Below, one piece after another: positions 1-35,954 of a stretch of 64,000 bases of DNA (position 1 is its first letter; each line of letters opens with the position of its first letter). Origin of the DNA: a virus. A program made the translations under genes and the position numbers. The stretch is taken from IMG/VR virus record IMGVR_UViG_3300044630_006293, positions 124,001 through 188,000 of that record. The stretch is one strand, 5' to 3'. The notes below the pieces were generated by a model. That model was given only the letters and a program-made list of their open reading frames with translations. It had not been told where the DNA came from and did not search any database.

Positions 1-558
1 TTCATTAAGAATATTATTATTTAAATCTTTAATAAAAAACTTAATAGAACCCATAGAAGTTCTGTGAAAATCTACTGTGTATACTGCAGTTTGGTCTTTG
101 ACGGTAAACTTAGCATATTCGCCGGCATCTGCAACATAGGATGGACATGTTACATGTACAGAACCAGCAGAACAGTAAATACCATAAGGTGAGTCAGGGT
201 GAGAACAAGTTGAAATGTTAACTGGATTTGCATATTTATAATGTACAGAAAGGTTTTCTGCACAACTAAAATATTTACAAGAAACACAAGAAGACTGAAT
301 TGGTTCAACTAATTGGGCTGAAACAATATTGCCCTTTTCAATTCCTTGAATAGATAAAGATGTAATATCTACGTTAGTTATTTCGCGAATTCTAGTAATT
401 GCTTTAGAATTAAAAACATCTACAGGATGTAAATCTGATTCAATTATGCTAACTAAGAGATCAATTAGATCAAAATCTTCAGAATTATTTTCAGTTTGAA
501 TCTGAGAAAGTAAATTACGAAAATGAGCAACAACAACACTTTTTTTTAATGTTCCCAC
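1..558 (-). CDS. Cys-rich hypothetical protein, C-terminus outside window
   Basis: An open frame starts with GTG at 558 and stays open for 186 codons to the left edge. GGAG lies six bases before the GTG, and the upstream gene stops only two bases earlier, so this is the next cistron of the leftward operon. The visible protein has a Cys cluster at about residues 95-135 (CVSCKYFSC, then CSHPD, YC and TC pairs), which suggests a small zinc-binding knuckle. I do not recognise the family. Confidence 0.7.
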   Translation of the reverse strand, partial: MGTLKKSVVVAHFRNLLSQIQTENNSEDFDLIDLLVSIIESDLHPVDVFNSKAITRIREITNVDITSLSIQGIEKGNIVSAQLVEPIQSSCVSCKYFSCAENLSVHYKYANPVNISTCSHPDSPYGIYCSAGSVHVTCPSYVADAGEYAKFTVKDQTAVYTVDFHRTSMGSIKFFIKDLNNNILNE

Positions 559-560
559 AA

Positions 561-1223
561 TTATCTCCAAGTAGTTTGATAAACAGAATAAATTTTTTTA
601 TTTAAATCATCTATTTGTTGATTAAGTTCTTTTATTTTAAGATCTTTCAGATCAAGTTGATTTAATAAATAACTATTATCAACAAGAGAATTACTTAAAT
701 GAGAAATAGACAGAGAAATTTGAGAAAGAATTTCTTCTGGAGAATTAGTGGTAGAAATCATTTCTAGATGGGATTCGGTAAATTCTTGAGATTTGATTAC
801 AAAAGCTTTTCCAGAACCAGCACCAATTTGAGTAATTCTACCAGATGATTTAAGAAGATTAAAAATTGATTCAGAAATAGAAGGAAGAAGATCAGAAAAG
901 AAAGTAGAAATAAATTCTTTCTTAGAAAAAGGAAAAAAGAAATAGTCAATACCCTCTGAAGAAGGCGCATACAACTCTAAAGTAGAGATAATAGAAGAAG
1001 ATGTACATAAAGCCGTTAGAGAAGTATCTTCTGATATTAAATCAGAATAATCAGATAAAGAACTCCCATCAGCAAGATATGATCTAAACCGAGAGTAATC
1101 TCCAGTGTTTATTACATGTGCTGCTAAACAGTTAAATTCTGTAGACTTTGTATTATGTTCTGAAGAAAACCGTTGGTAGGTAATAGAATTTAAAGTTTCT
1201 AAGTTATCAATATTAGTTATCAT
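561..1223 (-). CDS. hypothetical protein, 220 aa, coiled-coil C-terminus
   Basis: A Ser/Glu/Ile-rich acidic protein. The last ~40 residues (LKDLKIKELNQQIDDLNKKI) form a clear heptad-like coiled coil. The start ATG is preceded by GAGG at nine bases and overlaps the end of the upstream small frame by about 11 bases, so the genes are translationally coupled. There is no signal peptide or membrane segment. No family recognised; it sits in the same leftward operon as the AAA+ ATPase. Confidence 0.7.
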   Translation of the reverse strand: MITNIDNLETLNSITYQRFSSEHNTKSTEFNCLAAHVINTGDYSRFRSYLADGSSLSDYSDLISEDTSLTALCTSSSIISTLELYAPSSEGIDYFFFPFSKKEFISTFFSDLLPSISESIFNLLKSSGRITQIGAGSGKAFVIKSQEFTESHLEMISTTNSPEEILSQISLSISHLSNSLVDNSYLLNQLDLKDLKIKELNQQIDDLNKKIYSVYQTTWR

Positions 1224-1455
1224 ATTTTTGAGCCTCTACTGAGTGAAAGGATAGTGTTTTAGATTCAATGAACTTCTTTACGGGAAGTGAAAGTACATGT
1301 AAAGAAGTCATTTGTGGATACATTGATTTAACAATAGGGTATATTTTGTTAATGCATGATATATCTTTTATAATATCAATTGAATGAGAGTCTACAAAAA
1401 GTAGACAATGACCATTGCTCTCAGAGGTCAGATGACTTTGATTCAACCACGTCAT
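1213..1455 (-). CDS. possible small hypothetical protein (~80 aa)
   Basis: This frame fills an otherwise empty ~200-bp gap between two operon genes. The full open frame reaches 1509 but would overlap the upstream gene by 89 bases; the ATG at 1455 reduces the overlap to 35. I see no convincing Shine-Dalgarno before either start, so start and even reality are uncertain. The product (ending FHSVEAQKYDN) has no recognisable motif. Confidence 0.4.
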   Translation of the reverse strand: MTWLNQSHLTSESNGHCLLFVDSHSIDIIKDISCINKIYPIVKSMYPQMTSLHVLSLPVKKFIESKTLSFHSVEAQKYDN

Positions 1456-1801
1456 TAATGGCTGAGGCAAGTCTTTCATCCTGTTGGGCCACGAGTGTTT
1501 TAGATCCATCTTGCATAACCTTTAGCATTTCTCGTCTAGCTTGGCTGACGTTATTTTGAAAAACTTTTTGCTGATCTTCAGTAGCAAAAGAAATTTGAGC
1601 TAGAAGCGCTTCCAAAAACACAGCTTGCTCACCAAATCCTACGACCAAGGTGGCAATCTGCTTTTCAAAAGATTCAAGCTTATCATCAATTTCTTTAATT
1701 CTTGAATCTGTGAGCTTAGATAAGCTGATAATAACTTCTTCAACGTAAGACTTTAGTTCTTCAGTTGACATAGAAGAATCATTATTATTTTGATCAGACA
1801 T
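1421..1801 (-). CDS. coiled-coil hypothetical protein, 126 aa
   Basis: I place the start at the MSDQNNN methionine (1801), which has GAGG six bases upstream; the longer frame would begin inside the upstream gene. The protein is a nearly continuous amphipathic helix (residues ~15-110) with heptads such as SRIKEIDDKLESFEKQI, so it probably oligomerises. No family recognised. Operon position just downstream of the ATPase and the 213-aa protein suggests a linked role. Confidence 0.65.
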   Translation of the reverse strand: MSDQNNNDSSMSTEELKSYVEEVIISLSKLTDSRIKEIDDKLESFEKQIATLVVGFGEQAVFLEALLAQISFATEDQQKVFQNNVSQARREMLKVMQDGSKTLVAQQDERLASAINDVVESKSSDL

Positions 1802-1802
1802 T

Positions 1803-2444
1803 TTATACCTCATACCAGTGTTGGTTATTTGCTACATAAGAGTATAGCGCAAGATCAACAATATAGGAAATAGAAGAAATATCTTGGCGTGTTACTTTGA
1901 TAGAATCAACAGAAATTGGAGACTTCATATCAGGAATATAAGCTCCAGTATCTGAAACTCGTGCAGTAAAATGGCCAGCTTTCCATACAAAAGCATTAGA
2001 ATCATAAGTATCACCAGAAGACCAGTGATGTGCCTTGAAGATTCTAGATACAGGCTTTCCATCAATCTTTCCGCCACCATAGGAAGCATAAGCTTCTGGT
2101 GTAGGTATTCCTAATCTATCATTTGCAGGATATATATCAGCTGCAGTTCCAAGAGTAATTGATTTAAGATAAGCAGCAAAGTCAACAGCGTCAACATAAA
2201 GCTGAGTGTGTCCTAATAACTTTCCATCAGGAGAAGTTTTACCAATATCTATTTTAAATTTCATACCAGTAAACCAAGGGCGAATAGAAAGAAATCCGCT
2301 TTGGGTTTTAGATCTAAACCACTTCTTATAAAGATCATTTTCGTAATCTTTATCATCTTTAGAAAAGACTTTTTCAGGGGAATTAGAATCGTCATCAAGG
2401 GTAGTTAAAAACTCTTGAACAGATTCATAAACTTCATCTGACAT
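1803..2444 (-). CDS. hypothetical protein, 213 aa
   Basis: A soluble alpha/beta-looking protein with an acidic N-terminus (about residues 1-35) and a Trp/Gly-rich core (IRPWFTGMKFKI, HHWSSGDTYDS, VWKAGHFTARV). The stop lies just before the next start and the AAA+ gene ends 16 bases upstream, so it is in the ATPase operon. I do not recognise the family. Its constant partnership with the ATPase makes a substrate-adaptor role conceivable, but that is only inference. Confidence 0.7.
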   Translation of the reverse strand: MSDEVYESVQEFLTTLDDDSNSPEKVFSKDDKDYENDLYKKWFRSKTQSGFLSIRPWFTGMKFKIDIGKTSPDGKLLGHTQLYVDAVDFAAYLKSITLGTAADIYPANDRLGIPTPEAYASYGGGKIDGKPVSRIFKAHHWSSGDTYDSNAFVWKAGHFTARVSDTGAYIPDMKSPISVDSIKVTRQDISSISYIVDLALYSYVANNQHWYEV

Positions 2445-2459
2445 TTTTATATCTCCTTT

Positions 2460-4073
2460 TTAATTTGAAATAGGAATCTTTGCGAAGGAATTCCTGGCAA
2501 TTGAACGATTTGGATTAAGTACATTTTGTGCTTCTGTGTATTGATCAGTAGAAGCCCAGTCCCACTGATCAAGAGCTGTTCTATACAATTCTTGAATCAT
2601 TGGTCGAGACTTATTCCAAAGAATATTTCTCATTTTAGAAACATGAGAAAGTATATCTTGAGTATTGATTGCTCTGAGCTCAGAGGAACTAACAAAGAAT
2701 TTAACTTCTGAAATAAGACTCTTAATTTCTGCACCGGTAAAGTACTGAGTTGCATTTGCTAATGCTTCAGTATTATACACATGGGGTGTATTTATTCCAG
2801 AAAGGTAAATTGAAAAGATAGATTGACGCTCTTCAAGAGAAGGAAGGCCAACAAATAAAATTTTATCAAAACGATCTGCGCGTAACATCTCTGGCTTAAG
2901 ATGCTCAAGCTGATTAGCTGCACACATCAAGAAAACATTTTCAGGAAGTTCCTGAAGACCAGTAAGAAATTCTCCATGAACACGATCAGTCGTGCCACCA
3001 TCTACCTGGGAAGAACTTTGTCCACCAGATAGATCTCGACCAAATTCGTCAATCCAAACACATAATGGGGCCATAGCATTGATCTGTTTAAATACTGCGC
3101 GCATATTAGCTTCTGATTGACCGATATAAGAGTTCATGACTTGACTAATGCCGGTGCGAGCAAGATCTAGACCAAGAGCATTTGCAGTTGCCTCACAGAT
3201 GGCAGATTTACCAGTGCCCGGAATACCAACCATAAGCATGCGTCTGATTGGGGAAATTCCAAATTGCTTAGCTTGTTCAGGATTATGCCAAAGGTTAGCG
3301 TTTCTAGAAATAAGATCTTTAATAAAATCAAGACCACCAATATTATCAAAAGTAATTTGAGGTTTAATAATCTCTAGGATGCCGTTCTTCTTGACTGAGC
3401 TCATTTTCTGCTCATAAATATAATCAGCAGAAACTTCACCAGTTTCAAGAACAGAGGTCAAAGCAAGATTAATAAACTCAGTTTCAGAAAGGCCCAAAGC
3501 AGAAGAAGCAATAGCTTTGTAATCAGATGTAACAAGTTGATTATTAGAAGAAGAATTTATGTGAGCAAGTACTGTAACAAAATCTTCTATAGAAGGATAC
3601 TCAGTTTCTATAGAGTTAAACAAATGAGCAAAATTTTCTGGAGCAGAAAAATGAGAAACAATAATATATTGAATAGGCATAGAAGCAAGATCATTAGACC
3701 AAAATGCTTCACGATAAGTTACATTAGCGTTATTAAAAAGACCTGCGTACATTTCTACAAAGCCATCAGGATTTGAAAAAACATCAAACATAAATGTCTT
3801 TTGAGTTTCTATTTCATATTTAGAAATAAAATCATGAGCAACAGAAAAATCAAAAGTTACTTTCTTAATAACCTGAGCTGGATCATCTGGACTAGGCATG
3901 TCGACTAGAACGGGTTTCCATGATCCGTTTTTATATTGACAAAAACCGTTGATAGGATCAATGATAAAGTAACTACGATCAGAAAAATTAACGATTGATT
4001 CTAAAGCCTTAGAGGTATCCATCGTCTTAACCCACAAAGATGGGTAACCAAGTTTAATTTGAGAAAAAAGCAT
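2460..4073 (-). CDS. AAA+ ATPase, Cdc48/FtsH-like (Ycf46-like)
   Basis: A 537-aa protein with an N-terminal ~230-residue domain and one classical AAA module. The module opens with FDNIGGLDFIKD (242-253), typical of Cdc48/proteasomal ATPases. Walker A is GIPGTGKS (283-290), Walker B is CVWIDEF (338-344), sensor-1 is CAAN (384-387), and arginine fingers are LRADRFD (397-403). The overall plan, including the N-domain, is most like the Ycf46 group. It lies directly downstream of the Ubl/E1/JAB/E2 genes behind a terminator, so it may be read through or separately started. An unfoldase acting on Ubl-tagged proteins, as Cdc48 does in eukaryotes, is an attractive but unproven role. Confidence 0.9.
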   Translation of the reverse strand: MLFSQIKLGYPSLWVKTMDTSKALESIVNFSDRSYFIIDPINGFCQYKNGSWKPVLVDMPSPDDPAQVIKKVTFDFSVAHDFISKYEIETQKTFMFDVFSNPDGFVEMYAGLFNNANVTYREAFWSNDLASMPIQYIIVSHFSAPENFAHLFNSIETEYPSIEDFVTVLAHINSSSNNQLVTSDYKAIASSALGLSETEFINLALTSVLETGEVSADYIYEQKMSSVKKNGILEIIKPQITFDNIGGLDFIKDLISRNANLWHNPEQAKQFGISPIRRMLMVGIPGTGKSAICEATANALGLDLARTGISQVMNSYIGQSEANMRAVFKQINAMAPLCVWIDEFGRDLSGGQSSSQVDGGTTDRVHGEFLTGLQELPENVFLMCAANQLEHLKPEMLRADRFDKILFVGLPSLEERQSIFSIYLSGINTPHVYNTEALANATQYFTGAEIKSLISEVKFFVSSSELRAINTQDILSHVSKMRNILWNKSRPMIQELYRTALDQWDWASTDQYTEAQNVLNPNRSIARNSFAKIPISN

Positions 4074-4181: not shown

Positions 4182-4439
4182 TTAACCCTTTTCGCCTGCA
4201 CGGCGGTGGAACTCTACGTTGTCATTTGCTCCAACAACATAGTCTTCATCAAGCTTATCTTTACCTTTGTAAGCTACAGCGTCTGAAGGAATTCCCCAAA
4301 GCTTGGAAAACTGTTCACGGATATCCTTTACAGTCTTTCCTGAAACTGGAGCAGGCTGTGTGTAAACACCAAAGCGAACGTTGGCCATCTGACCAGACGA
4401 AGGCTGTGATGCTGCACCGGAATTGTTAATTGCAGTCAT
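4182..4439 (-). CDS. ubiquitin-like protein (PRTRC-C-like)
   Basis: An 85-aa protein. After a flexible ~17-residue N-terminus it shows an alternating beta-grasp-like pattern: MANVRFGVYT, a helix with VKDIREQFSKLWGI, then AVAYKGK and NDNVEFHRR, ending in GEKG with a C-terminal glycine. PRTRC protein C, a Ubl, ends in a similar FRRAxGxKG tail as I remember it. An AGGAG ribosome site precedes the ATG. It is followed by a strong terminator and preceded by an E1-like gene, so it is the likely modifier of the encoded conjugation pathway. The single rather than double terminal glycine is normal for such bacterial Ubls. Confidence 0.8.
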   Translation of the reverse strand: MTAINNSGAASQPSSGQMANVRFGVYTQPAPVSGKTVKDIREQFSKLWGIPSDAVAYKGKDKLDEDYVVGANDNVEFHRRAGEKG

Positions 4440-4452
4440 TTTATTCTCCTAA

Positions 4453-5208
4453 TTAGTTATTAACAGTAGATACTAGAGATGGACGACGATCATAAGGTTC
4501 TGCTTTGCCAATTGCAAGGTCAAAGTAAATCTCTGCTTCGTCAGGGCTTTGTTTGGCAACAATTGTTTTCTGAACTCTTCCAAGCAAATATGCAGCAACA
4601 GCCATATTTGTAGCAAGAATTTGAGTCCCTCCTTCAATTGATGCGCGTTCCTGGCAAGATAACTCTCCTGGATTTTTATCAGGAGGATTATCATATTCAG
4701 GATGGTTATTCACTGGATGGTCAGTAACGTCATAGCCGTCACGACGTTGATAATGATAGATGCTACCAAAAAGAGCATCATCATTTCCACCAGTAAAAAT
4801 ATCAATATTATTTAATTGAGATGCAGCGTCAAACAAAATTTTACGAGCAGCAAAATTATCTACAACTGCAAATACAACATCATTCTCAGAGATTAAAGAA
4901 GAAGCTTTAATCTTAGGAGACTCTTCATCTGCAACACCAGCAAAGTTGTCATCAACAACCCATTTAGGAACTGGAATAAAAGTTGTATTGTCAAATTGTT
5001 GAGTTAATCTATGAGCTGTAGCAATTGCTTTATTTCCCATTTGAGTAAAAGATTGACGTTCTTTATTGCGCTCTTCATAAGTATCGCCATCAACAATTAT
5101 AAGAGCAGAACCAGGATACTTATACTCTAATAAACGAGCAAGACCGTCAGCAAGCCATGTGCCAATGCCTCCAGCTCCAACAAGAACAAACCTTTTTTGC
5201 TCAGTCAT
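4453..5208 (-). CDS. E1/ThiF-family Ubl-activating enzyme
   Basis: A 251-aa stand-alone ThiF/E1 domain. The nucleotide loop GAGGIG is at 11-16 after a first beta strand; the acidic strand end IIVDGDTYEERNKERQ (38-52) carries the conserved Asp, Asn and Arg residues, with Lys60 next. VVDN (115-118) is the Mg-binding Asp motif. A candidate catalytic Cys185 lies in PGELSCQERAS, followed by the crossover helix region. It should adenylate the C-terminal Gly of the 85-aa Ubl and form a thioester. It overlaps the JAB gene by 8 bases and lies 13 bases before the Ubl gene. Closest in organisation to the PRTRC ThiF protein. Confidence 0.9.
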   Translation of the reverse strand: MTEQKRFVLVGAGGIGTWLADGLARLLEYKYPGSALIIVDGDTYEERNKERQSFTQMGNKAIATAHRLTQQFDNTTFIPVPKWVVDDNFAGVADEESPKIKASSLISENDVVFAVVDNFAARKILFDAASQLNNIDIFTGGNDDALFGSIYHYQRRDGYDVTDHPVNNHPEYDNPPDKNPGELSCQERASIEGGTQILATNMAVAAYLLGRVQKTIVAKQSPDEAEIYFDLAIGKAEPYDRRPSLVSTVNN

Positions 5209-6874
5209 AATAATATTCTCTTTCTGCTATATAGTCAAATTCACTTTTTGAATTTTTGTAATGAACAAATGAAGCACAAACATCAATTGGATCATTTATT
5301 GTGAATCCTTCTTGAACAAAATCTACGATAGCTTCTTTAAAAGAAGGGCAAGAAACATCATAATAATTTACACAATTAAAACAATCAGTTTCTATTTGAT
5401 AAACAAATCTTTTTTTGTGAGCTTCATCAAACTCTTTAATGTTAGATTCTGTAACAGTTTTCTTACATGAACAAAGATGAACATCAGTAAGGTTAACACC
5501 ACAGCAAAGAGTTTTTTCTTCATAAACAAAATCATCATCTGGAACAACATCGGATCCAGCTGCAAAAGGATCTAATCCTTGAGGTTTAATATTTAAAAGA
5601 AAATTAGAAACAGGATTATGTTCATCTACACAGTAGATATAATAACCAACATTGGGATCCAGTGCTCTACTGGAACAATAGTGATGAATCATAGTGATGA
5701 TGTCATACTGTCCCATATCTTGAGTAATTATAGGAGTGTCGCAAGTTGGACAAAATCCAGACTTAATTGCTTGAAGTTCTAAAGGAAAAGAACAAATCAA
5801 GCAATCAGCTGACATAACAGATTCAAGATCAATCTCAATTGCAACAATAGAATCATGAGGAATAGAATCTAATTCTTTTAGAAAAATAGATTTATCAAAT
5901 GATTTATGGGTAGTAGTTTCCGTACCAGCTGTCGTAGGTTGCGAGTTGGGAGGTTGTTGAGCCCACATCTTTTGGTACGACTGGGTTTGTGTAAGAGTAG
6001 CCTGAGTAGCCTGAGTAGCCGAACCCCCCATATTGAGGGGTTGGACTTTTTTTACTTTTTGGGTCCATTCTACAACCTCAGGATCAGGTGATTTAGATAC
6101 AAAAAGTGGCTCAAAAACATCTTCTGGCTTAAGGGTAAAAGCAGTTCCGCCCATTTGAAGCTCTATATGATATTGAGTTGCTCCATTGTTAACAGTCTTT
6201 TGCCAACCATAAGTAATATGAATGCCATCAAAGTCTGCTTGATCTTCATGATCTGTGCCAGATGCATATGCAGGCATATCAGGATGAGAGTGAACAGAAC
6301 CAACAATCATAGCTTCATCTGGTTTAATAGCAACAATGCTATCAGCATCGTACTTGCAATGAACAGAAGTGTTTTGTTGTTCAGGAACTAGCACACCCCA
6401 TCCATCAGGTCCTTCTTTAGTTGGATCATAAGTAAGTATTACGATAGATTCAGTATGATGTTGCGCGTCAACTAAGCGGAAGAATTCATCAAGCTTATCT
6501 ACAATAGTCCGAGGAATGTAAGGCATTGTATATTGTGCAACTTCTTCAACAGATGCAAAGTTTGAACCTAAAGGATCAGAAGAATCTGATACAGAACGAC
6601 CAACAAAGTTATTGACAACTTTAAGAATAGAAGGAGCATAACTTACAGAAGTAGACTGTGTTACAACTCCTTTTGAATCTTTAGTCTGAACATTTTTGTA
6701 AGTTGCTTTATCGCAAATTAAATAATAAATTTGAAATCCAAATGATTCAATTACTTCACAAATATCATCTACGACTTCCCAGTTGTTTGCAACGAAACAA
6801 GGGGCACCGTTAGACATCCAGAAATAATTCATATCATCTAGAGTGTAGTTAACTACATTCTCTACTGTAGACAT
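5201..6874 (-). CDS. JAMM/JAB isopeptidase with C-terminal zinc clusters
   Basis: A 557-aa protein. Residues ~120-250 form a JAB/MPN domain: a candidate Glu142, then HSHP (195-198) followed by SGTD (205-208), the full H-x-H-x7-S-x2-D metal motif. It should remove or process Ubl from targets. The N-terminal ~120 residues are unassigned. A Gln/Thr-rich linker (~270-330) leads to a Cys-rich tail with CLIC...CPTC, LCCG...CSC and FNC pairs, likely zinc ribbons. The Ubl here already ends in Gly, so deconjugation is more likely than precursor trimming. It overlaps the E1 gene and follows the E2-like gene. Confidence 0.88.
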   Translation of the reverse strand: MSTVENVVNYTLDDMNYFWMSNGAPCFVANNWEVVDDICEVIESFGFQIYYLICDKATYKNVQTKDSKGVVTQSTSVSYAPSILKVVNNFVGRSVSDSSDPLGSNFASVEEVAQYTMPYIPRTIVDKLDEFFRLVDAQHHTESIVILTYDPTKEGPDGWGVLVPEQQNTSVHCKYDADSIVAIKPDEAMIVGSVHSHPDMPAYASGTDHEDQADFDGIHITYGWQKTVNNGATQYHIELQMGGTAFTLKPEDVFEPLFVSKSPDPEVVEWTQKVKKVQPLNMGGSATQATQATLTQTQSYQKMWAQQPPNSQPTTAGTETTTHKSFDKSIFLKELDSIPHDSIVAIEIDLESVMSADCLICSFPLELQAIKSGFCPTCDTPIITQDMGQYDIITMIHHYCSSRALDPNVGYYIYCVDEHNPVSNFLLNIKPQGLDPFAAGSDVVPDDDFVYEEKTLCCGVNLTDVHLCSCKKTVTESNIKEFDEAHKKRFVYQIETDCFNCVNYYDVSCPSFKEAIVDFVQEGFTINDPIDVCASFVHYKNSKSEFDYIAEREYYYD

Positions 6875-6915
6875 AAAACTCCTAAAATATTAATTGGTTG
6901 TGTTTTTTATTGATA

Positions 6916-8760
6916 TTAAAATGGATTATCGTAATCAATAACAGGATCATAAGAATAACTATGATTTTTGTCATGAGAATTTTTATTGTAGTTTTCAACA
7001 TGAAACTTATTAAAATTATCAAATGAAACAGGAGTAAAACTAATAGTTGGAGAAGAGTCTGGAGCAAAATTAATTATTGCACAAGATTTACAAACTCCAA
7101 ATACATCTATATCAAAAGTTTCATCATCGTTTAATGGAACAGTCATTGTAGTTTTGGGGCATTCAATAGAATCTTCTAAGAGATTATTCTTAAGAATTCC
7201 ACAAGGACAAACATAAGATTTTGCTTTGCAATTGTTACAGAAATAAATTTTATTTATATTTGTACTAGCAAATGGTTCATCTCCAGAGTAATCTAGAAAT
7301 GGAACAGAAACAATTTGCTCAAATGCTTGAGATTCTAAAATAGATTTTTTACAAGTATTGCAAGAGTAACACTCAAGAGAGTTATCCTTAGCATATTGCT
7401 CTACACAGTTTTGACAAATAGTGGATTCGGAATCTTCAGGATGCCAAACTTCTTTAATTACTTTGTTGGTACCGCTGTCTGCCCAGTCTTCGCCACATGT
7501 GTCGCAGGAAACAATAGTATCAAATGTCTTATGATAATACTCATTAGAAGTTTCAACATAATAAACAGAGTCATCATCTACATTGAAATGGGCATCAACC
7601 GATTTGATGTGAATAAAATACTCTTCGAAACATCCTTGACAAATTGAATTTTCATAATAATCTTTATTTTCATATTCATCTTTCTCATAAGATTCTCCAC
7701 AAGCATCGCAATTAAAATAAGCTGTTTCAGGAAGATTTGTATGATCAGTAGGTGAATCAAGTAAAGAAGAGTTAGAAAAAATAGAAGATCCAGTTTTATT
7801 CTTAATGTCTTCAGAAGACTGAAATGTATTATTTAATAAAGAGTTTTTCTTAGATGCGCTATTGTAAGATAGTGCAAAGTAAGAAAGAACAGACTCAGAA
7901 GCAAGTTCTTTGTCCGGGCGGATCACAGCATTGATAGGTTTGGTTTTAGTACTATCATGATAGTATGCTTGGTAATCGCCAACTAAAGCGTCAGCAAAAG
8001 TTAAATGCTGACCGTTAGGGTCATGCTTATCTTGATTATCCATTGATTCTACAAGAACTGGTATCCAAAGAGATTCATCTAAGGTCCATGCATAACCTTC
8101 ATTATTAGATTTATCTTGCCATTCAGTAGGGTTTGATAAATAAGATGGTTTATTATTTTCAATATAAAAACGAGTTCCATCAGTCTCAGACATGTTAGCA
8201 TCGTTGTAAGTTTCTACACCTGAACAACGCTCAATAAACCTTGAAATTCTCTCATTAAGTGGAAGTTCAGACCAATCTTCATTCCTATATAAACAAATCC
8301 ATCCAACACCATTTCCGCGATAACCCTTGCAATTAATGTTTGGAAGATTTACATGGTAAAGCTTTTGAGTAGGATGAGTTATAGGATAAGGAGAGTAGAA
8401 CATCCTTGCACCTAAAAGGTTGCCATGTTCCATATCGCAGATAATAATACGATATGGTTGAGCAACGTAGTACGCTGTTGCAGGAGCACCCTCTGCAGCA
8501 GCCCAGTTTACGTGATATAAACCTGGCTTATGCTGATAGGCAAACTGGCTATAAGTGCCAGCTGTGCGAATTGAAAGGGTTCCAGTTCCGTCTACTGGAA
8601 GTAGTCCGGTATCCCAAGCAGCATACTGAGAGAAATGAGAATAAAAAGAAACAATATCTTTTTCGGTAACATGGTCAAGGTTAAAAGACTTGACAGTAGA
8701 TTGAACGGATATATTCCCCTCTTCTTTATGAACAATGGAATAGTTTATTTTATCAGACAT
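6916..8760 (-). CDS. E2-like Ubl-conjugating protein with zinc-finger tail
   Basis: A 614-aa protein. Residues ~100-180 read like an E2/UBC core: YSPYPITHP (122-130), then HVNLPNIN (136-143) and, 13 residues later, GWICLYRN with Cys156, followed by a helical segment NERISRFIERC. This matches the usual HPNI...G-ICL E2 pattern, as in Prok-E2/PRTRC-B proteins, with Cys156 the candidate thioester residue. Residues ~350-560 contain at least eight Cys pairs (CDAC, CQGC, CDTC, CQNC, CYSCNTC, CNNC, CPC, CKSC), plausibly several treble-clef or ribbon folds for target or Ubl recognition. A fused E3-like role is speculation. First large gene of the operon. Confidence 0.72.
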   Translation of the reverse strand: MSDKINYSIVHKEEGNISVQSTVKSFNLDHVTEKDIVSFYSHFSQYAAWDTGLLPVDGTGTLSIRTAGTYSQFAYQHKPGLYHVNWAAAEGAPATAYYVAQPYRIIICDMEHGNLLGARMFYSPYPITHPTQKLYHVNLPNINCKGYRGNGVGWICLYRNEDWSELPLNERISRFIERCSGVETYNDANMSETDGTRFYIENNKPSYLSNPTEWQDKSNNEGYAWTLDESLWIPVLVESMDNQDKHDPNGQHLTFADALVGDYQAYYHDSTKTKPINAVIRPDKELASESVLSYFALSYNSASKKNSLLNNTFQSSEDIKNKTGSSIFSNSSLLDSPTDHTNLPETAYFNCDACGESYEKDEYENKDYYENSICQGCFEEYFIHIKSVDAHFNVDDDSVYYVETSNEYYHKTFDTIVSCDTCGEDWADSGTNKVIKEVWHPEDSESTICQNCVEQYAKDNSLECYSCNTCKKSILESQAFEQIVSVPFLDYSGDEPFASTNINKIYFCNNCKAKSYVCPCGILKNNLLEDSIECPKTTMTVPLNDDETFDIDVFGVCKSCAIINFAPDSSPTISFTPVSFDNFNKFHVENYNKNSHDKNHSYSYDPVIDYDNPF

Positions 8761-8775
8761 ATAAAAACCTCGTTG

Positions 8776-9165
8776 TTATAGTTCGATTATATTAGAAAGA
8801 TCTTCGTCAATCTCGTTTGAATAATCAGAAAAAGTAGTGGTAAACCAAATAGGATCGGCTTCAAGAAGTTTAAGAACATTCATTCTAGATTTAAGATCTT
8901 CTTGAATATTAACAAGATCAGCAAGACGATCAATAGCTTTAGCCATCTTCTTTAAATCAGATTTTTGATTGGTAGCTCTCAATACAAAATGTAGAACAGG
9001 AACATCGTCATAAACAAAATGTTCTATTATTTTATTTACTCTAGAGTTAACTTGTTCAAGTTGAGATTCAAGATTCTTTTGAGCTGTTTTACCAGCAGCA
9101 AAAGAAAATGGAAACTTATCAATAGCAGTAATTCCTTGTGGAATTTTTTCTGGATAAGAATTCAT
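8776..9165 (-). CDS. hypothetical helical protein, 129 aa
   Basis: Mostly helical with coiled-coil character around residues 30-100 (NLESQLEQVNSRVNKIIE; MAKAIDRLADLV). It ends 15 bases before the E2-like gene and overlaps the upstream small gene by 4 bases, so it belongs to the Ubl operon. No family recognised; no cysteine cluster, signal or membrane segment. Confidence 0.7.
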   Translation of the reverse strand: MNSYPEKIPQGITAIDKFPFSFAAGKTAQKNLESQLEQVNSRVNKIIEHFVYDDVPVLHFVLRATNQKSDLKKMAKAIDRLADLVNIQEDLKSRMNVLKLLEADPIWFTTTFSDYSNEIDEDLSNIIEL

Positions 9166-9462: not shown

Positions 9463-9918
9463 CTATGCTAATTGAGCTTTAGCTGAACGATACTTGTTAC
9501 CGTCAGAACCAAAATAGTTAGAAACTATTTCAAAAGCAAGGATAAATAAGAGTGGAAAAATAGAGAATAAATTATAGTAAAAATTAAATATTATAAAGAA
9601 TAAAGTAAAAAGAATAGCAAAAGCCGGACCGGCAATTAAGACTGCTGGAGAATCTTTTATGTTTAAATTTTTAATCCTTGTAATTCCAATAACAAATGGA
9701 AATAAAGGAATAAAGTATGGGAGATCAGGATTTGCTTTTCTTTTGCGCGCAACAAAATAATGGCCAAGCTCGTGAACGAACAAGGCCATAATCATTACGA
9801 AAATTACAGGGTTATTAAAAATAGCATAATTAATACCTGCAGTACCCATAAGGGTACCTATCATTAAAAAAAAATGAGATAATGTTTTTCTATTTGTTTT
9901 TTGAAAATATCTCTTCAA
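9463..9918 (-). CDS. M50-type (site-2-protease-like) membrane metalloprotease
   Basis: A 151-aa membrane protein with about four hydrophobic segments. HELGH (49-53) is the zinc-binding HExxH motif inside a membrane helix. NPDLPYFIP and IAGPAFAI match the M50 core; the second metal site is probably in SNYFGSDGNKYR (Asp in the NxxPxxxLDG-type region), though it is degenerate. It should cut substrates within membranes. It overlaps the upstream acidic protein gene by 29 bases. Phage-encoded M50 proteases are uncommon; a role in envelope regulation or processing of a membrane anti-sigma-type factor is possible. Confidence 0.8.
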   Translation of the reverse strand: MKRYFQKTNRKTLSHFFLMIGTLMGTAGINYAIFNNPVIFVMIMALFVHELGHYFVARKRKANPDLPYFIPLFPFVIGITRIKNLNIKDSPAVLIAGPAFAILFTLFFIIFNFYYNLFSIFPLLFILAFEIVSNYFGSDGNKYRSAKAQLA

Positions 9919-15994: not shown

Positions 15995-17425
15995 TTAACC
16001 TCTAGATAAAAAAATAGATGAACTAACAGCGGATTTATTTCCGTCTTTCATAATAGCATACATGCTACAAAAAGAAAATTCTGGCTTAAAAGGAACCTTA
16101 TAAACATGGGTTGTAACAAATGGTTCATAAGGTATGTCATATTGTTTCGTAGAACAATCAAGAATATATTTTACTATAGAATTCTTTGGAGCAAATGTAT
16201 CTTGATATCTAATGTAGAAGAAAGAAGACTGTAAAGTTGGAGTATATATCTTCATAAGATAAGGCTTAAAAGAAGGAAGAGGTGGAAGAGATGGGATGGA
16301 AGGAGTTTCAGGAGGAAGGTACACAGGAAGAGTACTAGGGGGTGATGAGGGAATTGTAGTTGTGGTTACAGTTGGATTTTCAACTGAGTTAAATAATGAT
16401 GAGACATTAATAGAAGGAATACTTAACCTTGAATAAGGGTCAATAGCTTTAGGGCTTATTGATACAAGGTTAGCAACAGCTGTTGCTATAGAATGATTTG
16501 GAAACTTTTGTTTATACAAAGCAAAAATTCCAGAAACATGAGGTGCAGACATAGAAGTTCCAGAAGCTTGTCTGTAATCTTGATAATCAGCAGAGGATAT
16601 AATCTTATATCCAGGAGCAGCAAATGTTGTATTTTCTGAAAGGTTAGAAAAAGATGTAATTCTTCCATCTAGAGTAAGTGCAGCAACTGAAACAACTTTA
16701 GATATGCATGCAGGATGAGACATTCCTAATGAATAGGAATTACCAGCAGCAACAACAACAGGAATGTTTTTGTTATAAAGTTGATGAATAAGAGAAGTTA
16801 ATGTAGGGGATACATTATCGCAGTAACCTCTAAATATTCTAGAAGTTCCTAAACTCATATTTATAGCAGCAATATTGTAATTTGATGAAATGGACAATAC
16901 CCATTTTAATGAGTTAATAAGAGATGTCTCAGAAGATGAATCATCTTTATCAAATACATTAATAGGTATAATTGATGCATCCGGAGCAACTCCAACTAAA
17001 GTTGAAGATTTGCCGGCTGCAATACCTGCAACATGAGTACCATGCCAATCAACTTGATTAGCAGCGTTACCACCAATTTGTTTATTAGTGGAGTTAGGAC
17101 AAGAAGAGTTAACAGTAAAACAAGCTTGTAAAGCTATTTTACTAGATACCATTGGATGAGTAGAGTTGATGCCACTATCTATGACAACAACATGGGTTCC
17201 TTTTCCAGTAACTGAAAGAGCGTGAACTTTGTCTGCTCCAATATATGGTACAGATGTATTTAAAAATTTACGATAAACAATCTTATTGTTTTTCTTTTCT
17301 AGCTTTTTATTCTTGAATAACCGAATATCATTCTTAGTTGAAGCAGATGCATCAACAGAAGACATATGGGTTATGAAAGAAATAAACAAAGAAAATATAA
17401 TTATAAATTTAATTTTACTTTTCAT
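15995..17425 (-). CDS. secreted subtilisin-like serine protease (S8)
   Basis: 476 aa with a signal peptide (MKSKIKFIIIFSLFISF, cleavage near ASA at ~26-28). The catalytic triad is complete: Asp83 in VVVIDSGIN, His128 in DWHGTHVAG, Ser291 in SGTSMSAPHVSG; oxyanion Asn229 in AAGNS. A Thr/Pro-rich linker (~358-395) leads to a ~80-aa C-terminal domain with Cys residues. There is only a short pro-region (~30-75), so activation may be simple. Export by the host or attachment to the virion are both possible. Secreted subtilases are unusual phage cargo. Confidence 0.92.
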   Translation of the reverse strand: MKSKIKFIIIFSLFISFITHMSSVDASASTKNDIRLFKNKKLEKKNNKIVYRKFLNTSVPYIGADKVHALSVTGKGTHVVVIDSGINSTHPMVSSKIALQACFTVNSSCPNSTNKQIGGNAANQVDWHGTHVAGIAAGKSSTLVGVAPDASIIPINVFDKDDSSSETSLINSLKWVLSISSNYNIAAINMSLGTSRIFRGYCDNVSPTLTSLIHQLYNKNIPVVVAAGNSYSLGMSHPACISKVVSVAALTLDGRITSFSNLSENTTFAAPGYKIISSADYQDYRQASGTSMSAPHVSGIFALYKQKFPNHSIATAVANLVSISPKAIDPYSRLSIPSINVSSLFNSVENPTVTTTTIPSSPPSTLPVYLPPETPSIPSLPPLPSFKPYLMKIYTPTLQSSFFYIRYQDTFAPKNSIVKYILDCSTKQYDIPYEPFVTTHVYKVPFKPEFSFCSMYAIMKDGNKSAVSSSIFLSRG

Positions 17426-20448: not shown

Positions 20449-22980
20449 TTAAAGATTACGGTTAGATGTAGTATGAACGATACCGGAATATTTAGAATGA
20501 TACTTCTGATATTCAATAATGTCAGTAAAAGTTTTTGATTCTTGATTCTCAGGAGAATAAGTCCAAGACTCAGGTTTTACTTGATTAATGGTAATAGTTC
20601 CATCAGGATTGCGATCAACAATTAATCTAGCTGCAATACCATAATGTTGAAGAGCACGCTCTAAATATGGATATACAACACGATTCATTACAATTTGATC
20701 ACTAATTTTACCACCAGAGGTAGTCATGTTTAGTGATACAGAGTAAAGGGCAAGAACAAAGTCATGCCTATCTTGTGGTTTAAGATTGCTCTCAATGGTA
20801 TCTATGATAGAAGTGTAAAGAGATTCCCAAGCATCTCTTTGAACTGCTGCATTATTTTGAATCAACTCAGGAGAATTTGCATTATAAATGCCCATTCGGA
20901 ACCTGCGTAGATGTGGTAATGCATGGAAGTACAAGCGTGAACCAAGTTGGTTAACAACTTCAGGTGGACGAGAATTTTCTTGAGACCAAGAAACTACTCT
21001 TTGACGGTAAGCTTGAAAATACTTAGAACACAAATCATAAATTTGAGTAATTTTACCATCATAAAGTTGAACTGACTCGTTTTCTTTCAATGAGTTTTGA
21101 AAGTTACGAGACTGCCAAAAGGCACGGTCGATTGGACGTCCAGATTCAATAACTTCACGAACAAGCTTTTTAGCTTCTTCGTCAATAGCAGCACGGTCAG
21201 CAGGGTCAACTGTTTGAGTGCAGCCATCAATGGCGTCTTCCAAAGAACAAAGTTGAACTTTGCGGTGATTTGGAAATACCATAGCATGAAGCATTGCTGC
21301 GTTGACATATCTGCCAACATTGCCACCATTCATAGCAGCTAATAAATCTGCCATTACTTGGTTTTGGTCATAGAATTCTGATACGTGAGCACTACTTTTG
21401 TAGTGAGTAGAAGGAAGACCTGAATAAGATACTTGTTTATTATTAATAGCCACGGAAAGGCGCATAGGCCATCCTCGTCCATTTATAACAGGAAACTTAA
21501 CAGGAGTTCCATCTGACATCATCCATGTTGGAGACCATTGATCTTCAACATATTTGAATACAGAATACTCGCCTTTGCCATTCGGAGAACGAATAGCAAT
21601 GACTACTTTTTGTCCGTCGAGTTCTCCGCCTTCAATCGTACGATAGAAGACTTTAAAGAAATCGTCGGCATCGTGGCCACCATGAGATTCATACATCTCA
21701 AGCCAATCAATATCGTCCACAACATGGACTCCAATTTCATTGATTCGCTTAATAGTTCCTGGACTTACATTTATATCATATCCTGCCATGCGAGCAATGG
21801 ATTCGGAAATGATTTGTTCGTAAACAGAACAAGGAATAGGTATGCGTTTTTGAAGTGGCATAGCGTGAGAGACAGCAAGGTTTTCGAAGAGCCACGGAGA
21901 ATCCGTAATCTTCATACCTGCAGCTACCCAACGATATGCAACATAATTCATTCGAGATTGAATTTCTTTATCTTCAATATCTTCAGAGTCTCGCCACATA
22001 CGCGTATATACAGACTTCCAGTTCTGCAATAGCTTACCATTAATTGCGTCTTGAAACATCTTTTCGTATTCTTCTTTGAGCCACATTTCCATGTCAGACT
22101 TGCGGAACAACTTGGGAAAGTTGATAACAGTCTGATCGTCGGTGATAACACGCAACTTTGGGCCTTGAGGCTCAGCCAATAAACGGTAGCCACCAGTATA
22201 GGTGACTTCCTTTTTGATATTGGCAGCAGAAGTAATAACGTCTACATCCAAAGGCAGATTGTCAGAAACAATCATATTGCCTTTTATGATACCAAGATCA
22301 CAAAGAATGCGAGCATTGTATACCTTAGATGTTGCAAGAAAGTCTTGCAAATGACGACGAATATTAGGATCGTAATAATATTCATCTGTGTCAGTAGACT
22401 TAGATGGTTCATATACAGGAAGGTTTTCAATTCCTGCAGCCATTAAACGGCTAGATACAATAAAGCATCCGTCGAGTAAACGTTCCAGTATATCTGGAGT
22501 GTTATACTCTGGAGCATCTTCATCATATATATATTTACTAAATTCAATAGGTTCAGCTATTTTAATATTAAGATTATCATAGTGTGCGTTGAAAAGAGTT
22601 GGGCGATGAAAAGATTTCATGCGCTTAGCACTTTTGCCACCGCCTTTAACAGTGAAGCCCATATGATTAAGCGTTGACATCCAGCCATTAGACTGTCCGT
22701 CAAGTAGTGTGACAACAAGTTTATTTTTGTCAACAATAGCATATTCTACGGAAGGATGACTAATGATGGTTTTAGCTTTCTGCATCTCTTCATCATTTTG
22801 AGGAATAGGCAAAGAAGCTACACGGTATTCAGAAAAAGATCCATTATCCATAGCGTCACGAAGAACTCCAATATCATAGAATCCAAACTGATAGTTATTA
22901 ACGGACCGAAGTGGTCCATTAGGTTTAGATTTAAGCCTGACGGCAGGGGAATAAGTACGGTTTGTACGGCGATTAACCAT
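20449..22980 (-). CDS. 843-aa protein, distantly RNA-polymerase-like (tentative)
   Basis: A large soluble protein. It shares an ordered motif set with the 926-aa protein at 33174-35954: IKGN (232-235), GGHDADD (434-440), IAIRSPN (461-467) exactly 27 residues on, then GGNVGRYVNAAM (552-563) and CSLEDAIDGCTQ (578-589). The order Lys-containing motif then D-x-D-D recalls the two double-psi barrels of two-barrel RNA polymerases (DbDGD loop), and the later GGNVG...NA segment recalls the NDNLG...NA helix of QDE-1-type enzymes. The third catalytic Asp is replaced, so activity is doubtful. The paralogy is firm by eye; the polymerase link is a hypothesis. Confidence 0.5.
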   Translation of the reverse strand: MVNRRTNRTYSPAVRLKSKPNGPLRSVNNYQFGFYDIGVLRDAMDNGSFSEYRVASLPIPQNDEEMQKAKTIISHPSVEYAIVDKNKLVVTLLDGQSNGWMSTLNHMGFTVKGGGKSAKRMKSFHRPTLFNAHYDNLNIKIAEPIEFSKYIYDEDAPEYNTPDILERLLDGCFIVSSRLMAAGIENLPVYEPSKSTDTDEYYYDPNIRRHLQDFLATSKVYNARILCDLGIIKGNMIVSDNLPLDVDVITSAANIKKEVTYTGGYRLLAEPQGPKLRVITDDQTVINFPKLFRKSDMEMWLKEEYEKMFQDAINGKLLQNWKSVYTRMWRDSEDIEDKEIQSRMNYVAYRWVAAGMKITDSPWLFENLAVSHAMPLQKRIPIPCSVYEQIISESIARMAGYDINVSPGTIKRINEIGVHVVDDIDWLEMYESHGGHDADDFFKVFYRTIEGGELDGQKVVIAIRSPNGKGEYSVFKYVEDQWSPTWMMSDGTPVKFPVINGRGWPMRLSVAINNKQVSYSGLPSTHYKSSAHVSEFYDQNQVMADLLAAMNGGNVGRYVNAAMLHAMVFPNHRKVQLCSLEDAIDGCTQTVDPADRAAIDEEAKKLVREVIESGRPIDRAFWQSRNFQNSLKENESVQLYDGKITQIYDLCSKYFQAYRQRVVSWSQENSRPPEVVNQLGSRLYFHALPHLRRFRMGIYNANSPELIQNNAAVQRDAWESLYTSIIDTIESNLKPQDRHDFVLALYSVSLNMTTSGGKISDQIVMNRVVYPYLERALQHYGIAARLIVDRNPDGTITINQVKPESWTYSPENQESKTFTDIIEYQKYHSKYSGIVHTTSNRNL

Positions 22981-33173: not shown

Positions 33174-35954
33174 CTACTTGTCCCTGTTACGGAACCAGAG
33201 CATTGCCTCATAGAAGTACTCAAGGACCATATGGTCAGAGTTCTTGGGAGAGGTGAAGAGCCAACGATCAAAGTTATTCCGGTCGTCGTGCTTGAGCTTG
33301 ACTGACTCAGACTTCCTGATGTAGGACATGCGAGTCATGCTCAGGATGAACTTGTGGAACTTGACATCGTCGTTGAGCCTTTCCTTGTAGGAGGCAAAAC
33401 GATCAGCTATGGCAATTGCTACATTGTCATAGTGCTCAGAGATTGCAGCTTTGTCGTTCTTGATGTTTGCAGGAACGGTGAACTGGTTCTTGAGCTCCGT
33501 AACGAGTTTGCGGAAACGATCCTCATTCTGGCCATGGATGGTGATGTTCAACTCAGGGATCTCCTTGATGTTGACGTTCAGCCAGCTAATCATCTTGTTG
33601 TGAGTCTCACGCACCATCATTTCACGAGGGATCATGAAGTCACGAACAATCGGAGACTGCTCAGGAGAAAGATTGCCAAGCCAGCTATTGATGGCCCTGC
33701 TCTGCTTGAGGCGAATACATGCAGCATTCATGTTGCGACTGTACCACCAGTAGGCATCGATCTTCTTCTCAGTTACGAGAGTTGCAAGAGTATTGTCAGA
33801 CCACTTGACCAAAGTACTGAGGTCGTTCTTGTCACCCTTGCACTGTTGCAGAGCGTCAATCATATCCTCGTTTGCACATGGCAGAGTGTTGAATGGGGAA
33901 TCGTAGGTGCTATACCAAAGCATCTTGGTCTTAACTTGACCACCAACTCCTGCTCCCTTATAGAGAGAGGTGTTATAGTTGTAGCGAGTAAGTTCCCAGT
34001 TCCAAACAGGGTGCTGAGGACGGTCAGATCCACGAACCTTGGATGGAAGCTTGCCATTGCGAGCAGTGCTGTTGAACTTGTCAAAGTCCTTCTCGTAGAT
34101 GGTAGGAAGGTTGATTCCGTCATCCTTACCAAGGAAAACAGGTCCAAACCCGTCTACATCCATGATATGAAACTCACTCCAGTCATTTGGGGTGCGAACA
34201 ATGAATGCCACAAGGCGAGTATTGTTATCCTTAGTCACCATTAGGCGAATATGAACTCCAATCTCATCATCAAGGTCTGCACCACCAAGTTTGCCAAGGA
34301 TCTCAGCAGCTTGATTACCAGGGATCATGAATGTCTGAGTTTCCTCATGGTACATGCCCTCGTCGCTTGTAAGGTCTACATCATAGCCAGCAAGGTAAAC
34401 AACCTCTTTGGTCATGACATAAGCACGATAAGCCCATGGCATGAAGACGAATGACTTCTTTGACTTGGACGGAGCTTTCCAACAGGTGCCTACTTTACGA
34501 AGGCTGCCAGTGTTGTCATACTCATCCAGGAACATCTTCTTGAGTCCATTTGCTCGCATGAACATCATAGTCTGGCTGATACCAATACCAAGGTCAAGAT
34601 CATTAAGCATTGCTGCCATCTTGTTTGTCTTGGACGTGAACTGGCCATCATTGATGTGAGAGATCTTCTCAGCCTCAGTGGTTGCACGTTCTGGCATGAT
34701 GTTATTGAGCATCTCGATATCCTTGCCCTCTACCATGTCGTCGAAAGCTTTATCCAGCACAACCTGGAAGGTATCAAGCATCTCGCCAAACTCAAATACA
34801 CCAGGAATTCCCTGATATTGAGCAAGCATCTGATCATTAGTCTTGACTATGCCAGGACCATGGTGTGGTTCCAGTGTAATCATTTCCCAAGTACCATCAG
34901 TGCCAAACTCCTTCTTGAAGTTATCCACAGATGTAAAGATGTCATATGTCTCACCTTTACCAATGATACCAAGCTTACGAAAGCGAGCATTGATCTTATC
35001 ACGTTGTCCAGTGATGAGGTTACCCTTGATCAAGCCAGCTACACCATTCACGTTTGTAACAATACGAACGGTATGGTTGGTGATCTTATTATCATTTATC
35101 TGACGCACAATGTGACCATGGCCACTATTGCGATAGACATACCGTACTGTTTCTACGGCACCGATAGAGATACCATCCATAGTCTTCTCAGCAGCAAGGT
35201 CATCAACCAGGTGAGGAAGAGCTTTGCGGATCTCCTGATAGGACAAGACCTTGATACGGAGCTTCTTGCTGTCACCTTTGTGAACTGCATATCCACTAAC
35301 GGACTTGACTAGTTCCACAAGACGCTTTACCATCTTATCGGAGTTGCCAATAACAAAGCCATACTTAGCCATGTTGACATAGTCTTTGCTGTTGTAGCCC
35401 TTGATACGGATGGTGGTTTCTGCATCGAAGTCAGCATAACCAAAGATGATATCCTTAGGCTTGCTGATAAGAGATGAATCAACCTTCTGATGGTCACCAG
35501 TGAATGGGTTCTTGAAAGCTGTGATGGTTACACAAAAGCTCTCATGAGAAAACCGATCCTCAAGCATGGCAAACTTGTAGTTACCACGGTTGATTTCGTG
35601 AACGATGACAACACCTATCTTGGTGAGCCAATAATCAGGATCGTTAGTAATAACACGGCTGATTACTGTGTCGTTAATTGTGGTAGTTTCAATCAAGTAT
35701 TCCTTGATCATAGCACCTCCTTGGGTAGTGGTCTTTACCATGTTTGGCTCCTTTTTGTTGTCCTGAATATTTACATCAGGGTTAAGGTGGTTAGTGGTCC
35801 GGTCAAAAGGCTGAGTGACCTCTTGCTTGGGAGCACCTTTGATTGTGCCGGACTTCTGGTCCAAGAGAAGCTGGGAAGCAACTGCATAGCTGCTATCAGC
35901 CTCAACGGGGATCCATATATCGGATCCGGTATACTTGACGAGATATGTCTTCAT
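33174..35954 (-). CDS. 926-aa protein, paralogue of the 843-aa protein, distantly RNA-polymerase-like (tentative)
   Basis: A GC-rich gene with strong AAAGGAG. It shares ordered motifs with the 843-aa protein: LIKGN (308-312), GGADLDDE (557-564), FIVRTPN (584-590) at the same 27-residue distance, KGAGVGGQVKTKM (666-678) and CANEDMIDALQQ (693-704). This supports common descent. D-L-D-D-E could be a degenerate DbDGD loop of two-barrel RNA polymerases, but the glycine and third Asp differ. A ~90-residue N-terminal extension contains a small YLVKYTGSDIWIPVEADS domain that resembles phage short beta modules. An internal MIKEYLIET methionine could be a second start. Confidence 0.5.
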   Translation of the reverse strand: MKTYLVKYTGSDIWIPVEADSSYAVASQLLLDQKSGTIKGAPKQEVTQPFDRTTNHLNPDVNIQDNKKEPNMVKTTTQGGAMIKEYLIETTTINDTVISRVITNDPDYWLTKIGVVIVHEINRGNYKFAMLEDRFSHESFCVTITAFKNPFTGDHQKVDSSLISKPKDIIFGYADFDAETTIRIKGYNSKDYVNMAKYGFVIGNSDKMVKRLVELVKSVSGYAVHKGDSKKLRIKVLSYQEIRKALPHLVDDLAAEKTMDGISIGAVETVRYVYRNSGHGHIVRQINDNKITNHTVRIVTNVNGVAGLIKGNLITGQRDKINARFRKLGIIGKGETYDIFTSVDNFKKEFGTDGTWEMITLEPHHGPGIVKTNDQMLAQYQGIPGVFEFGEMLDTFQVVLDKAFDDMVEGKDIEMLNNIMPERATTEAEKISHINDGQFTSKTNKMAAMLNDLDLGIGISQTMMFMRANGLKKMFLDEYDNTGSLRKVGTCWKAPSKSKKSFVFMPWAYRAYVMTKEVVYLAGYDVDLTSDEGMYHEETQTFMIPGNQAAEILGKLGGADLDDEIGVHIRLMVTKDNNTRLVAFIVRTPNDWSEFHIMDVDGFGPVFLGKDDGINLPTIYEKDFDKFNSTARNGKLPSKVRGSDRPQHPVWNWELTRYNYNTSLYKGAGVGGQVKTKMLWYSTYDSPFNTLPCANEDMIDALQQCKGDKNDLSTLVKWSDNTLATLVTEKKIDAYWWYSRNMNAACIRLKQSRAINSWLGNLSPEQSPIVRDFMIPREMMVRETHNKMISWLNVNIKEIPELNITIHGQNEDRFRKLVTELKNQFTVPANIKNDKAAISEHYDNVAIAIADRFASYKERLNDDVKFHKFILSMTRMSYIRKSESVKLKHDDRNNFDRWLFTSPKNSDHMVLEYFYEAMLWFRNRDK

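Follow-up and report, generated by a model that had tools for sequence, protein, structure and literature searches.

Analysis of a 64,000-nt stretch of viral DNA (bases 124001-188000 of the 210,831-bp record IMGVR_UViG_3300044630_006293; hereafter the window, whose position 1 is genome position 124001) identified a cassette in which genes for a ubiquitin-like modifier (Ubl), an E1-like adenylating enzyme, a JAB/JAMM metallopeptidase and an E2-like protein stand side by side (Table 1). From sequence comparison and structure modelling we consider it probable that this phage encodes a reversible Ubl conjugation pathway of its own, run during infection. Profile searches, the invariance of catalytic residues, deep synteny and a modelled structure of the Ubl all support the presence of the full set, which was first proposed from the letters of the DNA (the sequence-only reading). 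The record is of phage origin, with genes for a terminase, a portal protein (6.7e-53) and a major head protein (2.2e-28), and the tRNA genes detected in it together with a WhiB-like open reading frame (ORF) spotted by inspection suggest an actinobacterial host. Earlier descriptions of full Ubl sets concern archaea, bacteria and bacterial plasmids, and bacteria turn Ubl conjugation against phages. In open-access full text we found no report of a phage with a whole Ubl cascade, and the text of a survey of jumbo phages (PMC7824862) mentions neither JAB, ThiF nor Ubl. In the following, clade 1 denotes about 40 related viral contigs with the cassette, including the present genome, and clade 2 a second phage clade; E2a, E2b and E2c are the three E2-like paralogues of the present genome, and L-numbers refer to individual homologous loci.

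The modifier, the E1-like enzyme and the JAB peptidase

The 85-residue protein taken as the modifier adopts a beta-grasp fold in an AlphaFold model computed from a 40-sequence alignment (strand-strand-helix-strand-strand-strand, core pLDDT > 90, loose tail). A Foldseek search of this model against the PDB places ubiquitin and ubiquitin-like proteins among the top matches with a probability of 1.00, the ubiquitin-like protein of Bacteroides fragilis being one of them, and Pfam ThiS/TGS is matched by some of the relatives, with weak ThiS matches in several. The C-terminal glycine ascribed to the protein is retained in all 43 distinct relatives as part of a KG ending, and within clade 1 the tail E-F-H-R-R-A-G-E-K-G is nearly fixed. 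Most of these Ubls (35/43) stop exactly at KG; the other eight add one or two variable residues (SL, NI, LA, C, R or GR). Judged from sequence, this is the pattern of a modifier with a putatively functional glycine end and, in some members, short propeptides. The Ubls of clade 2 (for example L016:10726-11196) are fused to an N-terminal Rho_N/SAP-like domain, with Rho_N matched in ten members (best 3.1e-6), which suggests an association with nucleic acids.

The assignment of the neighbouring gene as a ThiF/E1 enzyme with Cys185 as candidate catalytic residue likewise holds. In addition to the Pfam ThiF match, the adenylation residues (GxGGxG loop, D40, N48, R51, Q52, K60, D117) are invariant over both phage clades, and so is Cys185 in the E1 relatives; the nine clade-1 members listed have no cysteine besides it. 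Cys185 falls within the SC motif region common to PRTRC ThiF (SC..E.A..Q...N). Among PDB profiles UBA5 matches best (1.2e-9), and the best NCBIfam model is PRTRC_ThiF, which at 8.8e-9 and 35 bits remains below its cut-off of 144.75. In the E1 tree the viral sequences form one clade (99/99) with three contigs from metagenome-assembled genomes (MAGs) of Heimdallarchaeota and candidate phyla, separate from the plasmid PRTRC ThiF. JAB-E1 sets whose E1 branches with the phage enzymes occur in MAGs of Heimdallarchaeota (L077), Uhrbacteria (L078) and Falkowbacteria (L079), with Ubl genes in L078 and L079 and E2-like genes in L077 and L079; these sets may lie on viral contigs or be copies in cells. 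A second ThiF-like protein follows the Ubl in L015-L019 and L055-L063 (for example L016:11281-12183), in most cases with the C-terminus ETGAA, ETGGA or ETGGS, and could be a pseudo-E1 or a conjugation substrate itself.

The proposed JAB enzyme matches Pfam Prok-JAB at 1.7e-5, just above the family cut-off, and was confirmed by its JAMM motif, which is present in 45 of 45 relatives; the metal site, a glutamate plus HxHx(7)SxxD (E142, H195, H197, S205, D208), is invariant across both clades. PRTRC_A is matched at 0.0021 by the JAB of the window and at 4.1e-11 by a clade-2 homologue, both below the curated cut-off, and PDB profile searches with the JAB alignment returned nothing useful. In L049-L052 the JAB is split into two ORFs, one with the JAMM part and one with the C-terminal part.

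An E1 of this size and a single-domain Ubl are typical of sulfur-carrier pathways of the ThiS/MoaD type, which serve for example in tRNA or nucleotide thiolation, and the weak ThiS matches of several Ubl relatives would fit such a role. However, the set also comprises three E2-like proteins and a JAB, the tail ends in KG rather than GG, a zinc CxxC pair was not found in the E1, and neither rhodanese nor MnmA was found in the genome in searches whose controls matched. An exclusive use as sulfur carrier, named by the sequence-only reading as the finding that would speak against it, is disfavoured on these grounds, and we regard it as highly improbable.

E2-like proteins

The E2-like core claimed for the 614-residue E2a stands in part. 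Its residues C156, H136, N138 and N141 are invariant among 33 relatives, and it is linked to E2 families by way of its paralogues, while E2a alone has no match in family library searches. We compared trimmed cores with HHalign (-norealign) and judged the scores against column-shuffled controls. E2a matches clade-2 Prok-E2_D proteins (90%, score 48 versus a maximum of 22 in 60 shuffles) as well as E2c (94%, score 54 versus a shuffle maximum of 31), and it aligns to its E2 relatives at the active-site region. PRTRC_B is in turn matched by E2b (89%, score 46 versus a maximum of 22 in 40 shuffles) and E2c (83%, score 43 versus a shuffle maximum of 20). A hidden Markov model of E2c reaches, in three rounds, both E2a (1e-17) and the 800-890-residue protein encoded upstream of JAB in clade 2 (up to 1e-41). 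Among 13 proteins of this clade-2 type, ten match Pfam Prok-E2_D (best 3.6e-6) and five PRTRC_B (best 0.0065), on the active site where coordinates are shown; the Prok-E2_D matches, found in clade 2 and in some clade-1 relatives, fall short of the Pfam cut-off wherever it is displayed.

Aligned at 22% mean identity, E2b, E2c and a clade-2 sequence retain only seven invariant columns, amongst them an asparagine and a cysteine eight residues apart, which is the spacing of the eukaryotic E2 HPN..C. The same elements are found in E2a as H136, N141 and C156, but with an insertion between the asparagine and the cysteine. The active-site candidates are thus C156 in E2a, C194 in E2b and C184 in E2c. 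Nearly every clade-1 locus that extends far enough encodes E2b and E2c. At the level of sequence, it is these two proteins more than E2a that tie the set to PRTRC protein B and Pfam Prok-E2_D, and the identity of E2a as a putative E2 rests on profile links through its paralogues.

Gene order, distribution and relation to known systems

The four genes described as adjacent and coupled indeed lie head to tail on the minus strand, with a gap of 41 bp between E2a and JAB, an overlap of 8 bp between JAB and E1 and a gap of 13 bp between E1 and Ubl; Shine-Dalgarno-like sequences precede JAB, Ubl and the gene for g213. The order g129-E2a-JAB-E1-Ubl-AAA-g213-g130-g98-g220 is kept in about 40 viral contigs, a few pieces being absent where contigs end or from the most remote members, and since the same order recurs in so many contigs the arrangement is not due to chance. 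Overall, no proteins of the region are conserved better than E1 and Ubl. The g213 protein, which has no family match in library searches, shares 51-82% identity with most clade-1 relatives compared and 36% with the most distant one. Past the window edge the same strand continues with g253, E2b and E2c, followed by genes for a helix-turn-helix (HTH) protein, SSB and UDG and later for a Ntn/proteasome-like protein.

Table 1. Genes of the cassette and its surroundings; positions refer to the window unless marked as genome positions.
Feature	Position	Strand	Basis or remark
g253 (part; crosses window edge)	1-570	-	genome record
g220, conserved cassette protein	561-1223	-	synteny
g98, conserved cassette protein	1213-1509	-	synteny
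g130, conserved cassette protein	1421-1813	-	synteny
g213, conserved cassette protein	1803-2444	-	synteny, identity among relatives
AAA+ ATPase, PAN/CDC48/FtsH group	2460-4073	-	Pfam AAA 3e-24; synteny
Ubl, 85 aa, C-terminal ..EFHRRAGEKG	4182-4439	-	AlphaFold beta-grasp, Foldseek ubiquitins
E1-like adenylating enzyme, 251 aa, sole Cys = Cys185	4453-5208	-	Pfam ThiF 1.4e-13
JAB/JAMM metallopeptidase, 557 aa, C-terminal Cys pairs (probably zinc-binding)	5201-6874	-	Pfam Prok-JAB 1.7e-5 (just above cut-off)
E2a, 614 aa, active-site candidate Cys156, C-terminal CxxC modules	6916-8760	-	invariant residues, profile links
g129, conserved cassette protein upstream of E2a	8776-9165	-	synteny
E2b, 456 aa	genome 122431-123801	-	beyond window edge
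E2c, 380 aa	genome 121296-122438	-	beyond window edge
Ntn/proteasome-like protein, 202 aa	genome 117357-117965	-	beyond window edge

The same major capsid protein is encoded in 14 of the 20 cassette contigs tested, and four of the remaining six are shorter than 85 kb. Ten capsid-bearing contigs without E1 were probed and found to lack the flanking helicase and g213 as well, and therefore provide no evidence of cassette loss. Clade 2 carries the order E2-JAB-E1-Ubl, extended in most members by the second ThiF protein, and all 15 viral records of this distant set have a terminase match. In INPHARED we found a single distant relative of E1 and none of E2a, E2b or g213. The cassette is a conserved module of a large, abundant phage lineage of freshwater (lake water) and, in another form, of the second phage clade. 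One record of 267,766 bp (IMGVR_UViG_3300042868_009074) holds two cassettes (L008 and L010) and two Ntn genes next to one major capsid gene, which may reflect a duplication or a chimeric assembly.

Close to the cassette, and retained in part of the clade, lies a gene for a 151-residue protein (window 9463-9918) with a HELGH motif, S2P/M50-like by inspection and with a weak match to RseP. Inspection further points to a serine protease of the subtilisin type (S8), apparently with a signal peptide, at 15995-17425, and two large proteins of 843 and 926 residues (20449-22980 and 33174-35954) have no PHROG match.

Amongst known systems, the set was compared with the plasmid PRTRC system, which appears to be the operon type 6d described by Iyer et al. 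2006 (PMC1779556). Both comprise the same four functions (PRTRC proteins A, B, C and ThiF), the phage order E2-JAB-E1 matches the plasmid order B-A-ThiF, and the two share homologous E2s, the E1 motif given above and a Ubl tail of the form ..RA.G.KG. The resemblance of the tail to PRTRC protein C noted in the sequence-only reading thus holds for the motif (the C proteins compared end in ..RA(A/V)G(A/T)KG or ..TKG) but not for the whole protein, for which an NCBIfam search found no match, the PRTRC C family included. In contrast to the plasmid system, the set is carried by phages, has three E2-like paralogues, an AAA protein and further cassette proteins, its E1 forms the separate clade described above, and its members score below every curated PRTRC cut-off. 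A ParB_N search of the genome record gave no match while its controls did, so that the ParB family protein of PRTRC was not found. By sequence, the phage set would work like PRTRC/type 6d and shares its E2 ancestry, yet it has a separate E1 lineage and fails the curated cut-offs.

The Bil system (BilA-D) likewise combines a Ubl, an E1, an E2 and a JAMM enzyme, and JAMM maturation of the phage Ubl is plausible. In Bil the Ubl domain is doubled in BilA and the adenylation domain in BilD (PMC11354881), whereas the phage itself encodes an 85-residue single-domain Ubl and a 251-residue E1 with one adenylation domain; with neither a tandem-Ubl BilA nor a two-domain BilD, identity with Bil was rejected. 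The E1/E2/RING/ubiquitin cascade of Caldiarchaeum (PMC5654768) is also a full Ubl cascade in a prokaryotic setting, but no RING was identified in the phage set, which is phage-borne and whose E2s group with Prok-E2_D relatives. A phage Ubl and JAB are known from the tail assembly proteins TAPI/TAPK of lambda and T1 (PMC1779556); that pair is tail-associated and comes without E1 or E2, while the present cassette lies in a non-structural region.

Proposed pathway, its targets and a possible link to proteolysis

From these genes we infer the following course of catalysis. E1 would adenylate the C-terminal glycine of the Ubl and hold the Ubl as a thioester on Cys185, from where it would move to the active-site cysteine of one or more of the E2-like proteins. 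These would pass it on to target lysines, perhaps with help from E2a's Cys-pair modules. The JAB would trim Ubl precursors that have a residue or two past the glycine and would also remove the tag, and the AAA ATPase would act on tagged proteins. The targets would most likely be phage or host proteins handled in genome replication and takeover. Modification of virion or host proteins, or removal of host Ubl tags, as put forward in the sequence-only reading, may be among the roles of the set.

The gene neighbourhoods point to proteins of the replication phase as the first candidate targets. In clade 1 the order E2c-HTH-SSB-UDG is found and a helicase flanks the cassette, in a gut phage contig JAB-E1 is followed by an ORF that reads as sliding-clamp-like, and a Xanthomonas PRTRC locus has pol III beta and SSB on its flanks. 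A more specific form of the conjugation reading is conceivable, in which tagging of SSB or the sliding clamp, for example, would tune phage DNA replication and repair in the manner of eukaryotic PCNA modification; the Rho_N/SAP-like domain of the clade-2 Ubls would fit it too. All of this is neighbourhood evidence, however, and early regions of phage genomes commonly hold replication genes, so that we put this form forward tentatively, as a possibility.

The neighbourhood also bears on the idea that the cassette serves counter-defence, the JAB and/or the phage Ubl reversing or outcompeting host Ubl conjugation such as Bil, or shielding virions. The JAMM active site is intact, Borg elements hold many deSAMPylases (PMC12660748), and bacterial Ubl systems attack phage assembly according to Hor et al. 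2024, as cited in the same paper. Stripping of tags, however, could do without E1, E2s and Ubl, all of which are retained, with E1 and Ubl conserved best, and the neighbours of the cassette are SSB, UDG and helicase rather than virion genes. We therefore judge this role improbable.

An extension of the conjugation reading concerns the AAA protein, whose gene immediately follows that of the Ubl wherever a clade-1 locus extends far enough. It matches the models of the proteasome-activating nucleotidase (1.3e-32) and CDC48 (8.4e-32), in both cases below the curated cut-off. The 202-residue Ntn protein scores 24.5 bits against a Pfam proteasome cut-off of 22.4 and matches the archaeal proteasome beta subunit at 1.2e-5; the five sequences read start with M-T-T, and Asp17-like and Lys33-like residues are kept in the relatives, as far as can be read from the sequences. 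Its best named relative, annotated HslV, is from the lake Actinomycetia phage DSL-LC01. In the present genome the gene lies about 8 kb beyond AAA; it was detected in 11 of the 16 large genomes of clade 1, and in the relatives checked it shares the strand of E1 and lies some 11-16 kb downstream of that gene. Ubl-tagged proteins could thus be unfolded by the PAN/Cdc48-like AAA protein and cut by the Ntn hydrolase. Against this, Ntn was not found in five of the 16 large cassette-bearing genomes (whose contigs may be incomplete), is not adjacent to AAA, has relatives in phages that yielded no E1, and the AAA protein lacks a HbYX C-terminus. We consider such tagging for degradation possible but rather unlikely, and slightly more so a self-contained ubiquitin-proteasome-like phage system (Ubl, E1, three E2s, JAB, unfoldase and peptidase) that destroys or remodels chosen host or phage proteins. 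Many of the AAA proteins end in W/F..K-[IVAG] (for example L036, L037 and L047), by sequence a possible docking tail replacing HbYX.

Several results weigh against conjugation as such. Foldseek with the full-length E2a model returned only noise and no E2. This bears on the fold around Cys156, whose absence the sequence-only reading named as refuting, although profiles align the protein with E2 relatives in the active-site region. Searches of PDB profiles with the alignments of the E2-like proteins matched no E2 either. The direct comparison of E2a with PRTRC_B did not rise above shuffles, so that the link of E2a is transitive only, and Ubl compared with PRTRC_C scored within the shuffle range, which is not significant. 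The Ubl tail has a single glycine, unlike the GG of most Ubls, and relatives of the AAA protein in Catdawg, JP1 and RcMenchie have no annotated Ubl genes in the neighbouring stretches that were read. Set against the predicted beta-grasp fold, the invariant catalytic residues, the relationship of the E2-like proteins and the conserved gene order, these points leave a reversible Ubl conjugation pathway as the probable function of the cassette.

If the pathway works, phages themselves make use of post-translational tagging, and the long-unexplained PRTRC plasmid cassette would gain a second setting in which its function can be tested. It would also link Ubl tags to a PAN/Cdc48-like unfoldase in a virus of bacteria.

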